Shown: one piece after another, positions 2,323-9,418 of the stretch
Position numbering within the stretch: the first letter of the stretch is position 1
Layout of the letters: the number at the start of each line of letters is the position of its first letter
Source: Bacilli bacterium
GTDB lineage: Bacteria; Bacillota_I; Bacilli_A; ML615J-28; CAG-698
Assembly: GCA_028691515.1 (NCBI GenBank)
Contig: JAQUZE010000001.1
Coordinates: forward strand, 1 to 53,613
DNA length: 53,613 bases
Reading direction: 5' to 3'
Position numbers and translations under genes: made by a program
The notes under the pieces: model-generated
What the model saw: only the letters and a program-made list of their open reading frames with translations
Told to the model about the DNA's origin: nothing
The model's database searches: none

Positions 2323-3237
2323 TTACTCAGATAAATTAGGAAAGGGAACATTATAAAGAAAAGTTGATAAACTATTTGTTGAATCATAATAATTTACTTT
2401 GAAATATACGTTTTCTGGATGCGATACTTGTGCAATCTTTTCGTTATCAGTTGAAGCAAATTTCTTTTCGTTGTTTTGTAAGTTATATACTCCATATAAA
2501 GGATAAATTCTTCCTTCAGCAGATTCAATCCATGATTGCATATCTAAATGATATTTTTCTGATGAATCTAAAACTTCGATTTCAACTTTATAATTATAAT
2601 TTAAAATATCAAAATATATTGGTTTAAAAGTAATCTTAAATATATCTTCAATAATAGTTGTATTAGTAAGTTTAGCTTCACTTATTTCTTTTGAAGATAA
2701 TTTTAATATTGGCTCACTATATTTTAAAATCTTATATTCTCCATCAACTTTATAATGAATTTCACCATTAATTTCTTTAATTTGTCTATCTGGAACTTTT
2801 GTTCTTGTTAACATTTGATATGTATGAGGAAAACCTGTTCTTTTATTTGTAGAAAAGTACTTAACGGAATTATCTCCATATACAGCGTTATAATATAATT
2901 CATAATTAGAAATTACGATATCACTTTTTTTATTAAGTGAAGCGCTAATAGAAAATTGGTTAAATAATTTATCTTCTTCTGTACTATATTCTTCTTTTTT
3001 AACTACATTAGTAACTTTTATAACTGCAGATATATCATCGTCAGATAGGACGTGTGGATAATCAGTTCTTACAATATATCCACTTGCTGTTAGAAATGTG
3101 CCCGGAAAAGAAACAAACAATATGGCTAATAATAATATTATATATCCTAAAATCATTAAAAATATAGTACTTATGTTTAATTGTTCTGGAAAATTCCAAA
3201 AATTACTTCTTGTAATGGTAGTTTTTTGTTTTTTCAT
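2323..3237 (-). CDS. Membrane-anchored protein of unknown function between rpmH and dnaA
   Basis: I do not recognise this 304-aa protein. It has a short basic cytoplasmic N-terminus, one hydrophobic segment at about 22-50, and a polar domain of about 250 aa rich in Asn, Lys, Tyr and beta-type patterns. By the positive-inside rule that domain is probably outside the membrane. No Cys residues or catalytic motifs stand out. SD AGGAG is 7 nt before the ATG. It is divergent from dnaA across the origin region, where most Bacilli have rpmH directly opposite dnaA, so it is an insertion into a conserved neighbourhood. Confidence 0.75.
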   Translation of the reverse strand: MKKQKTTITRSNFWNFPEQLNISTIFLMILGYIILLLAILFVSFPGTFLTASGYIVRTDYPHVLSDDDISAVIKVTNVVKKEEYSTEEDKLFNQFSISASLNKKSDIVISNYELYYNAVYGDNSVKYFSTNKRTGFPHTYQMLTRTKVPDRQIKEINGEIHYKVDGEYKILKYSEPILKLSSKEISEAKLTNTTIIEDIFKITFKPIYFDILNYNYKVEIEVLDSSEKYHLDMQSWIESAEGRIYPLYGVYNLQNNEKKFASTDNEKIAQVSHPENVYFKVNYYDSTNSLSTFLYNVPFPNLSE

Positions 3238-6156: not shown

Positions 6157-6945
6157 CTATTTATTTAAATCTATATGGTTGAAAATATCCAAAAGCTCGT
6201 CTTCAATCTTCTTTTTCTCTTTTAAATCGTATCTATCTAAAGGAACATCATCAAAAGGAGTAAGGCCTTTGTCTTGTAAATTCTTTACGGTAGATTTTTC
6301 ACTAAAATAAGGTAATAATGTTGACTTTGGTGTAAATTCTTGTGATTGTTTTCCTAGAGTTATGATTGATTTCTTAGGAGCTCTTCTGTTTTTTACATAT
6401 AAATTAGGCAAAACATACTTTATTTTACCTAATTCTAATTCATTATCAATAAAATACTGAATTGTATTTATAAATCCACCAAGACCTAAACTATCTAACC
6501 CTACAACAATCAATATAGTGTCACTCATGTCAAGTAAAACTTCAGTTATTCTACTGCTAGAAGGTGGAAAATCAATAAAAACATAATCAAAAGCATCATT
6601 ATAAGTATCAAAAATTTTTTTAATTACTTTTTCTTGGGATCTTTCTAAAATAAGACGTGTAGAAAGCTTATCAGTGTTTAAAGTCTTAATTAAATATAGA
6701 TTTTCGCGAACTTCAATTAAAATATCGCTAAAATCTTGCTTTCCTGCCATTAAAAACTCTAAATAATTATCAGTTGTATCAAATATTTTGTCATCTTCAC
6801 CAAAGATTTTAAAGATGCTATTTTGGTCATCTATACTAACAACAAGCACATTATTTCCTTTTGTTGCTAAATAATGGGCATAATATCCAACAAAAGTAGT
6901 CTTACCTACACCACCTTTTTTACAAAAAGCCGAAATTATAGGCAT
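6157..6945 (-). CDS. ParA-family partition ATPase paired with an RHH protein
   Basis: The 262-aa MinD/ParA-type ATPase has a deviant Walker A KGGVGKTT at residues 10-17, a SIDDQN switch region near 38 and Walker B DYVFIDFPPSSS. It has no N-terminal helix-turn-helix, so it belongs with the short plasmid type (ParF, delta) rather than P1-ParA. The start overlaps the stop of the RHH gene by 1 nt (TAATG), so the two are co-translated. In characterised systems such an ATPase moves DNA over the nucleoid when stimulated by its centromere-binding partner. The location between dnaN and recF is not a usual place for parA. Function as a partition motor is inferred. Confidence 0.85.
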   Translation of the reverse strand: MPIISAFCKKGGVGKTTFVGYYAHYLATKGNNVLVVSIDDQNSIFKIFGEDDKIFDTTDNYLEFLMAGKQDFSDILIEVRENLYLIKTLNTDKLSTRLILERSQEKVIKKIFDTYNDAFDYVFIDFPPSSSRITEVLLDMSDTILIVVGLDSLGLGGFINTIQYFIDNELELGKIKYVLPNLYVKNRRAPKKSIITLGKQSQEFTPKSTLLPYFSEKSTVKNLQDKGLTPFDDVPLDRYDLKEKKKIEDELLDIFNHIDLNK

Positions 6946-7184
6946 TAATCTCCCTCCCTTTCTAATTTTTGAAGAACAGCCTCTTCAATATACTCAGAAA
7001 GTTGTTTTCCTTTTTTCACAGCAGCGATTTTGATTCTCATTCGCAAGTTTTTATCCATTGTCGCAGTATATTTTTCTCGTTCTGCTACTTGGACTTTCAT
7101 TTTTGGTTTTGTCTCGGTTACTTTTGCGTTTAATTTGTCAAAAGGGTTCTCCCTTTTTTTAAAAGGTAAATCTTTTTCAGCCAT
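6945..7184 (-). CDS. Ribbon-helix-helix DNA-binding protein, likely centromere-binding adaptor
   Basis: The 79-aa protein has a basic, probably disordered N-terminus (1-38) and a C-terminal ribbon-helix-helix: a strand EKYTATMD, then helices around 47-57 and 62-78 (QLSEYIEEAVLQKLERE). Size and layout match plasmid ParG and omega proteins, whose flexible N-terminus stimulates ParA and whose RHH binds tandem short repeats. AGGAGGAG stands 5 nt before the ATG at 7184. Directly upstream is octad cluster A, so self-repression is likely. I infer that it binds all nine octad clusters in the tract behind it. Confidence 0.8.
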   Translation of the reverse strand: MAEKDLPFKKRENPFDKLNAKVTETKPKMKVQVAEREKYTATMDKNLRMRIKIAAVKKGKQLSEYIEEAVLQKLEREGD

Positions 7185-7210
7185 TTTATCTCCTCCTATT
7201 GGTTATTTTG

Positions 7211-7266
7211 TTACGTATATACATAAAAGAATATAAATGTATTTATTTTTTTATGTATATACATAA
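7211..7266. repeat. Octad cluster A (RHH/parA operator)
   Basis: Seven consecutive 8-bp steps carry the motif at 7211 (TTACGTAT), 7219, 7235, 7251 and 7259. The last two form a perfect 16-bp palindrome TTATGTATATACATAA at 7251-7266. It is 27-82 bp upstream of the RHH gene, where its promoter must lie. A 16-bp stretch at 7235-7250 recurs exactly in cluster B. Confidence 0.8.
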
Positions 7267-7593
7267 ATATTTAAGCTTTTTAATGCCTTTTTCGCCTTAA
7301 AATTAGACATTAAATTTAAAACTTAAGTTGCTATTAATTTCCCAAAATACCATTTCATGTAGATTTTACACAGCTTTTGGGATAGAACTTGAATTGTTGT
7401 GTTTGAGCCCTAAAATTACATAGTTTTTTTGCGCTACAATCAATTTTACTGTGTTTTGCATTTAATTATTAACCCCCCCGCCTAGAAATCGTTAAAAACG
7501 AAATTTCAGAATTGTGTTTTGTCCTTTTTTTAAGTACAAAAACACTGATTTTGAGAGTAAATTGATGCAAAAAAGCTTAAAAAGTGTATGGTT

Positions 7594-7641
7594 ATATGTA
7601 TATAAGTAAAAATGTATTTATTTTTATATGTATATATGTAT
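7594..7641. repeat. Octad cluster B
   Basis: Six consecutive 8-bp steps hold exact ATGTAT cores at 7594, 7610, 7626 and 7634, all in the same direction. The 16 bp at 7610-7625 (AAATGTATTTATTTTT) are identical to 7235-7250 in cluster A. Confidence 0.75.
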
Positions 7642-7804
7642 AAAATGACGCTTTTTTTAGGTGTATTAAAGCTTATTTATTTAATCTTTTGCTCAGATAA
7701 AATATTTAAATGTAAAATTAGTGTCTTCAAAAGAGAAAATTTAGTTCTATAGCGTTTATTATACATTAAATTTATCTTGTATGCAAGAGTAAAAGCGTAT
7801 TTAT

Positions 7805-7820
7805 TTATGTATTTATGTAT
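7805..7820. repeat. Octad cluster C
   Basis: Two direct copies of TTATGTAT stand head to tail at 7805-7812 and 7813-7820, flanked by degenerate octads (7797, 7821). Confidence 0.7.
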
Positions 7821-7898
7821 TTATTCCTTCTTGTATAACAAATTGGATCAGAAAAGAAGAAAAATTTTAAATAGAATTAGTATATTGTGTAGTTATTT

Positions 7899-7922
7899 AT
7901 ATGTATATACATAAATACATAT
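7899..7922. repeat. Octad cluster D
   Basis: Three contiguous octads lie at 7899 (forward), 7907 and 7915 (both reverse). Clusters D and G share the same forward-reverse-reverse layout. Confidence 0.75.
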
Positions 7923-7980
7923 AAATAAATTGCATATTTAAATTTTGGTTTAACTATATAATGATATAAATAAGAATAAT

Positions 7981-8004
7981 TTATGTATTTATGTATATAC
8001 ATAT
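7981..8004. repeat. Octad cluster E
   Basis: Three contiguous octads occur at 7981 and 7989 (forward, both TTATGTAT) and 7997 (reverse). The 17 bp from 7999 (ACATATAATTATAAATA) recur exactly after cluster G. Confidence 0.75.
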
Positions 8005-8126
8005 AATTATAAATAGAAAAATCATTAAAATATTTATAAATAAAGAAAAGATTGTAAAAATATTTAGTAAATTTACATTTTTTTCTAAAACATGCGTGTA
8101 AATAGTTAATTTGATGTGGAGAAACT

Positions 8127-8150
8127 ATACATATTTATGTATTTATGTAT
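8127..8150. repeat. Octad cluster F
   Basis: Three contiguous octads lie at 8127 (reverse), 8135 and 8143 (both TTATGTAT, forward). Confidence 0.75.
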
Positions 8151-8272
8151 TAACTTTATAAAGATTTCTTAATATTCTTTAAATTATTAGAATTTATTTT
8201 TAATTAAAGAGCTATTTTTGTATTCTGTAAGCATATGTAGTCATTTTTTAGCAAAAAACTAGCATAAAATAT

Positions 8273-8296
8273 ATAAGTATATACATAAATACATAT
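8273..8296. repeat. Octad cluster G
   Basis: A degenerate forward octad at 8273 (ATAAGTAT) is followed by reverse octads at 8281 and 8289. This is the same arrangement as cluster D, and the right flank is shared with cluster E. Confidence 0.75.
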
Positions 8297-8411
8297 AATT
8301 ATAAATAAATATCATTTTACAAACACATAATTTATCTATTTTAGGAGAAATTAAAACAAAAATCAAAATATTTCCCGTTTTTAATTATATTTTAAAACGT
8401 ATTATCAAATT

Positions 8412-8442
8412 AAATGTATGTATATATTTAAATACATACATT
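8412..8442. repeat. Octad cluster H (long inverted repeat)
   Basis: AATGTATGTAT at 8413-8423 and its exact complement at 8432-8442 form 11-bp arms around 8 bp. In octad terms a forward unit at 8416 and a reverse unit at 8432 are 16 bp apart. Confidence 0.75.
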
Positions 8443-8621
8443 ATTTATTTAATGAAAAAGATTTTTCTTATAAATTTTTAAAAAACACAGCATTTTAAAC
8501 AAAAAAATTAAAATTAAATACTGTTTATTATAATTATTGCTAGAATCTAACAAATGTTTGTTAGTAAATAAGAACTAGTCATTAGTATATTTTAAAAAAA
8601 ATTATAAAAACGATAAATTTT

Positions 8622-8645
8622 ATATTTATATACATAAATACATAC
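8622..8645. repeat. Octad cluster I
   Basis: Reverse octads lie at 8630 (ATACATAA) and 8638 (ATACATAC), preceded in register by a degenerate unit at 8622. It is the last cluster before the AT-rich tract. Confidence 0.7.
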
Positions 8646-9136
8646 ATTCTTGCCATAATTATTTTATATTAAATTAAATATATTAAGAATTTCTATTTAT
8701 AAGTAATTATATTATGATTTTAATTATTAAAAGTATGAAATTTGAACGTTATAAATATAATTTATAGCAAAATAAAGAAAAAAGCACACAAAATAAGAAT
8801 AAATAATATTCATAGATCAGTTTGATTGTTAAATATTTAAGTATATTGATATTTATTTTCAAATAAAATAAAAATATTATTTATTTTTTGTGTTAATCAA
8901 TAGAATTTAGTAATAAATGCATGAATAAAGCAAAGGGTTTATTTAATTCTTACTTATTATTATAAAAATATAAATAAATATAGAATATTTATGCATATTA
9001 AAAGTAATAAACTTCTTTTAAATGAATAAAAAGAATAATTTATTAAATATTTATAGAAAATATTGAGTATAAAAACTAAATATATGACAATAAATATTAT
9101 TACTAAATTAAATCTAAATATTAATTAAAGTAAAAC

Positions 9137-9194
9137 TTATCAACAAGTATAAATGCGGGAAACTATGGATAAAACAAGGAAAACATGTGGAAAA
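9137..9194. other. DnaA-box cluster before yaaA (origin sub-region 3)
   Basis: Three one-mismatch DnaA boxes occur within 58 bp: TTATCAACA at 9137-9145 on the plus strand, and TATGGATAA (9164-9172) and TGTGGAAAA (9186-9194), which read TTATCCATA and TTTTCCACA on the minus strand. They border an extremely AT-rich stretch to the left, the usual layout of boxes beside an unwinding element. Confidence 0.65.
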
Positions 9195-9364
9195 GTAATA
9201 AAATGTTATTTTGCGCTTAAATATGCCATTATTTTGATAATTAGAAGCATTTGCTTCAAAAATGTATAAAGGGGATAAAAAAATGCAAATTTAAGGCTTT
9301 TAAGGCCTTAATATTCAAATGTTTATTAAAACTTAAAGATTGCTAAAAAAATGGGCAAAAAGGC

Positions 9365-9393
9365 TTTAAAAATGAAAGAAAATGTGGTATAAT
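9365..9393 (+). promoter_or_regulatory. Promoter of the yaaA-recF-gyrB-gyrA operon
   Basis: An extended -10 (TGG then TATAAT at 9388-9393) stands 17 bp after a weak -35 TTTAAA (9365-9370), about 26 bp upstream of yaaA. No other strong promoter is seen before gyrA ends. Confidence 0.6.
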
Positions 9394-9418
9394 AAATATT
9401 ATAATTTTAGGGGTATTT

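Follow-up and report, generated by a model that had tools for sequence, protein, structure and literature searches.

Which DNA does the ParA ATPase encoded beside the replication origin of this Bacilli bacterium act upon, and could the array of 8-bp units in the adjoining non-coding DNA be its centromere? The initial annotation of the window (the whole 53,613-bp stretch analysed) had proposed that these units, hereafter octads, form nine clusters in strict register and constitute the partition site of a ribbon-helix-helix (RHH) protein and ParA encoded by the neighbouring operon. As judged from sequence comparisons, the octad clusters are probably (we would put it at roughly 0.83) the centromere of a chromosomal type-Ib-like ParA/RHH system, which would replace HTH-ParB/parS in the order to which the bacterium belongs, with the rhh-proximal cluster acting also as operator. 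The features of the locus, unstranded unless a strand is given, are as follows.

6157–6945, minus strand: parA, a 262-aa ParA/MinD-type ATPase with a deviant Walker A motif, KKGGVGKTT (Pfam AAA_31, E = 1.8e-25; PDB matches including Soj and ParA; kept in all fetched loci)
6945–7184, minus strand: rhh, a 79-aa RHH protein, proposed centromere-binding protein and autorepressor (family conservation, profile, predicted fold)
7211–7274: octad cluster A, immediately upstream of rhh, proposed to be both operator and centromere (core scan; most relatives have an equivalent 20–110 bp upstream of rhh)
7416–7423: isolated octad core (core scan)
7428–7509, plus strand: second conserved element, about 95 bp long, present once in the interval from cluster A to cluster B and unlike the octads (nhmmer profile)
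7594–7641: octad cluster B (core scan; most relatives have an equivalent about 400–510 bp upstream of rhh)
7797–7820: triple octad module (core scan)
7899–7922: triple octad module, orientations +,-,- (core scan)
7981–8004: triple octad module, orientations +,+,- (core scan)
8127–8150: triple octad module, orientations -,+,+ (core scan)
8233–8240: isolated octad core (core scan)
8273–8296: triple octad module (core scan)
8416–8439: triple octad module, middle octad degenerate (core scan)
8622–8645: triple octad module (core scan)
9137–9194: three near-consensus DnaA boxes, putative DnaA-binding region of oriC adjoining yaaA-recF (box scan; GC skew turns positive across the interval)

The gap between rhh and yaaA-recF (7185–9418) consists of 2.2 kb of non-coding DNA with 25 TATGTA/TACATA cores, compared with a mean of 4.3 and a maximum of 12 in 2000 dinucleotide shuffles of the gap sequence. 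All 17 pairs of close cores (no more than 34 bp apart) are separated by exact multiples of 8 bp (8, 16, 24 or 32 bp) and none is out of register, while the same shuffles gave a mean of 0.03 such pairs and never more than three. The unit had originally been described as an ATGTAT octad, counted 25 times and spaced by multiples of 8 bp inside each cluster. This number fits TATGTA/TACATA, whereas ATGTAT/ATACAT itself has 29 matches at 7219–8642 (vs about one per 1.5 kb in the remaining window). Similarly, the spacing holds for TATGTA/TACATA, a better-centred unit for which the distance between neighbours, direct or inverted, is exactly 8k bp, but ATGTATGTAT overlaps generate a few 4-bp offsets for ATGTAT. 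The nine clusters reported within 1.4 kb are confirmed. The seven that start at 7797, 7899, 7981, 8127, 8273, 8416 and 8622 are 24-bp modules, each with three octads, of which one is degenerate in some modules; the other two (A and B) are longer, and the register is kept within clusters and not between them. One cluster, for example, reads TTATGTAT TTATGTAT ATACATAT in blocks of 8 bp. In the 1.23-Mb genome of the bacterium, matches to the pattern TAYRTANNTAYRTA in which both sides are TATGTA or TACATA are confined to C5:7252-8644, every other match having at least one TATATA, and a genome scan revealed no exact-core pair at octad spacing elsewhere; equal 8-bp phasing is thus not seen in the rest of this genome.

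That the neighbouring operon encodes an RHH protein and ParA was borne out by profile, fold and AAA_31 match. AAA_31 covers residues 3–166 of the parA product, the Walker A motif starts near residue 9, and Soj and plasmid ParA are among its solved relatives (PDB matches); as type Ib requires, this ATPase has no N-terminal HTH domain. The product of the adjacent rhh gene, a candidate centromere-binding protein found in 37 of 60 relatives, belongs to a family whose profile matches the solved RHH protein 56B (2kel) with E = 9e-8. The window protein has no match above the curated Pfam cut-offs (E = 0.64 for the Omega repressor family PF07764, for which the best family member reaches 0.00098), and individual members match the RHH_3, ParG and Omega models weakly, the ParG match being marginal (best E = 0.016, two members). 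Its AlphaFold model displays two confident helices (pLDDT about 90), and the best structural matches are nearly all RHH proteins (Arc, CopASO, AmrZ and MatP), none with E ≤ 0.001, as expected for a domain so small. Invariant residues are found in the basic N-terminus PFKKRENP (R11 and P14) and in the putative DNA-contact β-strand KYTATM (K38, Y39, T40 and M43); R11 and the near-invariant K10 lie within the low-confidence N-terminus of the model. No close phage relatives of the RHH protein were found, and the search for close plasmid relatives gave one marginal Thermus match. Recent integration of the module from a plasmid was considered and rejected, since the plasmid relatives of ParA are only 23–29% identical among the matches listed.

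The initial annotation had called for a count against shuffled sequence, where the 25 cores and 17 pairs exceed maxima of 12 and three, and for a comparison across related genomes, in which the octads and their register do recur. Thirty-six relative loci were fetched from two families, that of the window (f1) and a second one (f2), and all 36 share the gene order dnaA-dnaN, convergent parA-rhh, non-coding gap and yaaA-recF-gyrBA, the order of yaaA/recF and gyrBA being judged where the contig reaches that far. Elsewhere in the window, a conserved but fast-evolving gene between rnpA and dnaA (2323–3237; 22–40% identity in f1) encodes a 304-aa protein with no clear family, probably a membrane protein. 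In the 25 f1 loci (window included), TATGTA/TACATA rank with the top enriched hexamers of most gaps and 324 of the 389 close core pairs are at 8-bp multiples. In f1 the register is alike for direct, inverted and everted arrangements, and repeated hexamers number 520 at lag 8 vs about 16–46 at odd lags. In f2 the register is the same but weaker, lag 8 being the strongest (48 vs roughly 7–16 at most odd lags), and strict octad pairs are present in only some loci, several having none. Octads in register surround each core in both families, and these flanking units define the consensus TAYRTAWW. A typical f1 gap has one or two clusters 20–110 bp upstream of rhh, a set about 400–510 bp upstream and then modules towards yaaA. 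In genus g8 (L065 and L066), TACATA alternates with ACCATA in the same 8-bp register and the KYTATM strand is unchanged; the octad variant of this genus occurs as TTATACATAAAACCATA modules together with a 32-bp repeat.

Strict octad pairs number 167 in 40 kb of gap vs 13 in 409 kb outside, and most of these 13 lie between parA and dnaN, which is the other flank of the par operon, so that several relatives have octads on both its sides. The parA-dnaN pairs are at L032:8503, L033:8334, L042:8693-8825, L044:8921-8954, L047:9277, L049:11030 and L050:10704. Whole-genome scans of 28 family members mapped most direct repeats to the same contig position. The second conserved element (7428–7509) was detected in both families, in 31 of 37 gap sequences (nhmmer, E ≤ 1.3e-9), and its core includes AAATCRNTTTTT, GGTAAANTTATT and CCCCCGGGGG/CGAAATTT parts; an Rfam scan of the gap, this element included, gave no match, and the element has no consensus RNA pairs or structure.

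In a profile search, the RHH family was found in 37 of 395 genomes of the class, all from one order and with one copy each, and in no further lineage of the phylum sample. Named records with the family are MAGs labelled Acholeplasmatales, Acholeplasmataceae, Tenericutes or Bacilli. ParA distances correlate with those of GyrB (r = 0.92) and DnaN (r = 0.75), and the fact that ParA tracks GyrB argues for vertical inheritance of the module with the chromosome. One f2 genome (G028), in which the parA end is present and the DNA beyond it is N, was left out of the judgement on rhh. In the five other genomes of the order with no RHH match (G008, G038 and G040-G042) there is no dnaN match either, so these assemblies probably do not include the locus.

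PF02195 (ParB_N) has no match in the bacterium's own genome and, in the order, only matches weaker than 1e-11, none of chromosomal strength or type; in most other sampled families of the class it matches at 1e-28 or better. The 16-bp parS is absent from the own genome with zero or one mismatch, and two sites have two mismatches (C5:92966 and C17:91468). Neither SMC nor ScpB was found over the cut-off in any of the 43 genomes of the order searched (own genome and 42 relatives, G000-G042), and both are present in many class relatives; the SMC search scores the nine best candidates per genome, ScpB being the cleaner test. These genomes are incomplete MAGs, for which absence from a single genome is weak, but all 43 agree. 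The order seems to be without standard condensin as well as ParB. Other class families also have neither SMC nor ScpB over the cut-off (G044, G047, G050, G053, G056 and G059), some of them having no strong ParB matches as well.

Type Ib systems are characterized by an RHH centromere protein, an unstructured arginine-finger tail, direct or inverted repeats upstream of the operon and autorepression (PMC5016525), and such repeats are present here upstream of the par operon. In delta/omega/parS of pSM19035, as in this locus, a ParA ATPase and a small RHH protein go together with short direct and inverted units packed gap-free, in clusters that overlap the promoters of par genes. Omega binds as one dimer per 7-bp unit (WATCACW, 7–10 per site) in either orientation, and full activation of its ParA takes four contiguous repeats (PMC9499535). 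Here, however, the unit is the 8-bp TAYRTAWW, mostly three per module, the modules are many, chromosomal and beside oriC, and the protein is weakly similar to Omega_Repress. ParF/ParG/parH of TP228 also has an RHH protein with a basic N-terminal tail (unstructured in ParG) and, upstream of the operon, repeats separated by AT-rich spacers, but its unit sequence differs and the ParG Pfam match is marginal here. Plasmid type Ib operons such as parF-parG run parA-parB, and the rhh-parA order is the reverse. MetJ, whose RHH dimers stack on tandem 8-bp met boxes, differs in being a SAM-dependent metabolic repressor with no ParA. Chromosomal ParABS (Soj/Spo0J/parS) has in common with this locus a ParA ATPase and, among dnaA-dnaN-recF-gyr, a centromere by oriC (proposed here), but instead of HTH ParB and 16-bp parS, which were not found, there are an RHH protein and octads. 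In archaeal SegAB, a chromosomal ParA-like ATPase is likewise associated with an RHH DNA-binding protein, but SegB recognizes a 13-bp palindrome whose sites, some 40 in number, are scattered and lie mostly inside genes (PMC12284271), whereas the octads are in tandem at one locus by oriC, in bacteria. The assertion that the layout is not known from described systems is therefore fair: it resembles plasmid type Ib centromeres (omega heptads and ParG boxes), from which it differs in its 8-bp unit, its triplet modules, the order of the genes and its location on a chromosome. A review assigns every chromosomal centromere-binding protein of bacteria to the HTH ParBs (PMC5002424), and no earlier account of a bacterial (including Mollicutes-like) chromosomal RHH partition protein was found in the open-access literature.

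The interpretation of the octads as a centromere beside oriC, already put forward from the window alone, has gained strong comparative support from the fixed synteny of 36 loci, the confinement of octads to the DNA on either side of the par operon, the single RHH gene per genome in one order only and the lack of a chromosomal-type ParB, in addition to a register beyond that of shuffles, exact-core pairs unique in the genome, the ParA-GyrB correlation and the precedents of type Ib (PMC5016525) and of omega with its units in either orientation (PMC9499535). It is weakened by octads that are weak in f2 and altered in g8, by the reversed gene order and by omega's need for four repeats, given that modules here mostly number three octads. 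Binding of octads by the RHH protein is suggested by position, co-distribution and the precedents within its family, and we infer that with ParA this protein would achieve ATPase stimulation, autoregulation and segregation. In the proposed model, RHH dimers would insert their KYTATM β-ribbon into octads and line up next to one another at 8-bp steps, whichever way the octads point, so that many modules near oriC would each carry a nucleoprotein patch of about three dimers. ParA-ATP bound to the nucleoid would be stimulated by the basic N-terminal tails of these dimers (PFKKRxNP) and would then move sister origins apart, and the cluster next to rhh would also repress the rhh-parA operon. This system would take the place of HTH-ParB/parS. 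It is likely, if with less assurance than the centromere itself, that the order swapped ParB(HTH)-parS/SMC for an RHH-ParA-octad centromere, the first bacterial chromosomal one of the RHH class, operating with neither ParB spreading nor SMC-ScpAB.

A different and rather unlikely scenario is that the RHH protein binds octads only as a region for autoregulation, local transcription control or origin organization, ParA acting elsewhere, e.g. on DnaA, and that there is no centromere. This would be in accord with the cluster found at the rhh promoter in most loci, with the dual role of plasmid RHH partition proteins, which are also repressors (PMC5016525), and with the regulation of DnaA by ParA/Soj in B. 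subtilis (PMC7022226). However, autoregulation needs one cluster, whereas gaps have 2–28 multi-octad clusters reaching up to 2.6 kb from rhh, and no ParB would be left for origin segregation. Still less probable is that octads are sites for another origin protein (DnaA or a nucleoid protein) or an unwinding element, with RHH and ParA as mere neighbours. Although the gap also has DnaA-box-like sites and very AT-rich DNA, and RHH-octad binding is itself deduced, DnaA boxes in the window are mainly at the yaaA end, apart from octads, which are also found at the far end of the par operon and not around dnaA; in addition, origin loci with no rhh from the same class have no octad pair. A functionless low-complexity expansion is hardly credible: the units are A/T-rich and alternating TA steps give some periodicity, but shuffles and genome-wide scans argue against it, as do the 197 runs of at least three octads (one mismatch allowed) vs about five and 54 expected in the same gaps from order-3 and order-5 Markov models, the latter a strict control because it already encodes the hexamer, and octads occur in both orientations and are kept over genera while flanking sequence is not. 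Finally, the notion that the RHH protein is a RelB-like antitoxin, prompted by a weak NCBIfam match (E = 0.018, below cut-off), was rejected, its operon partner being ParA in all loci, with no toxin gene adjacent.

If octads are indeed the centromere of a ParA/RHH system, ParA-driven origin segregation would be separable from ParB-CTP clamp spreading and SMC loading, and a plasmid-like module could become the sole chromosomal partition module. The octad rule would make this centromere recognizable in related genomes and directly testable. Throughout the order, chromosome sorting seems to rely on an RHH protein and on centromere rules of another kind, a design otherwise known in bacteria mainly from plasmids.
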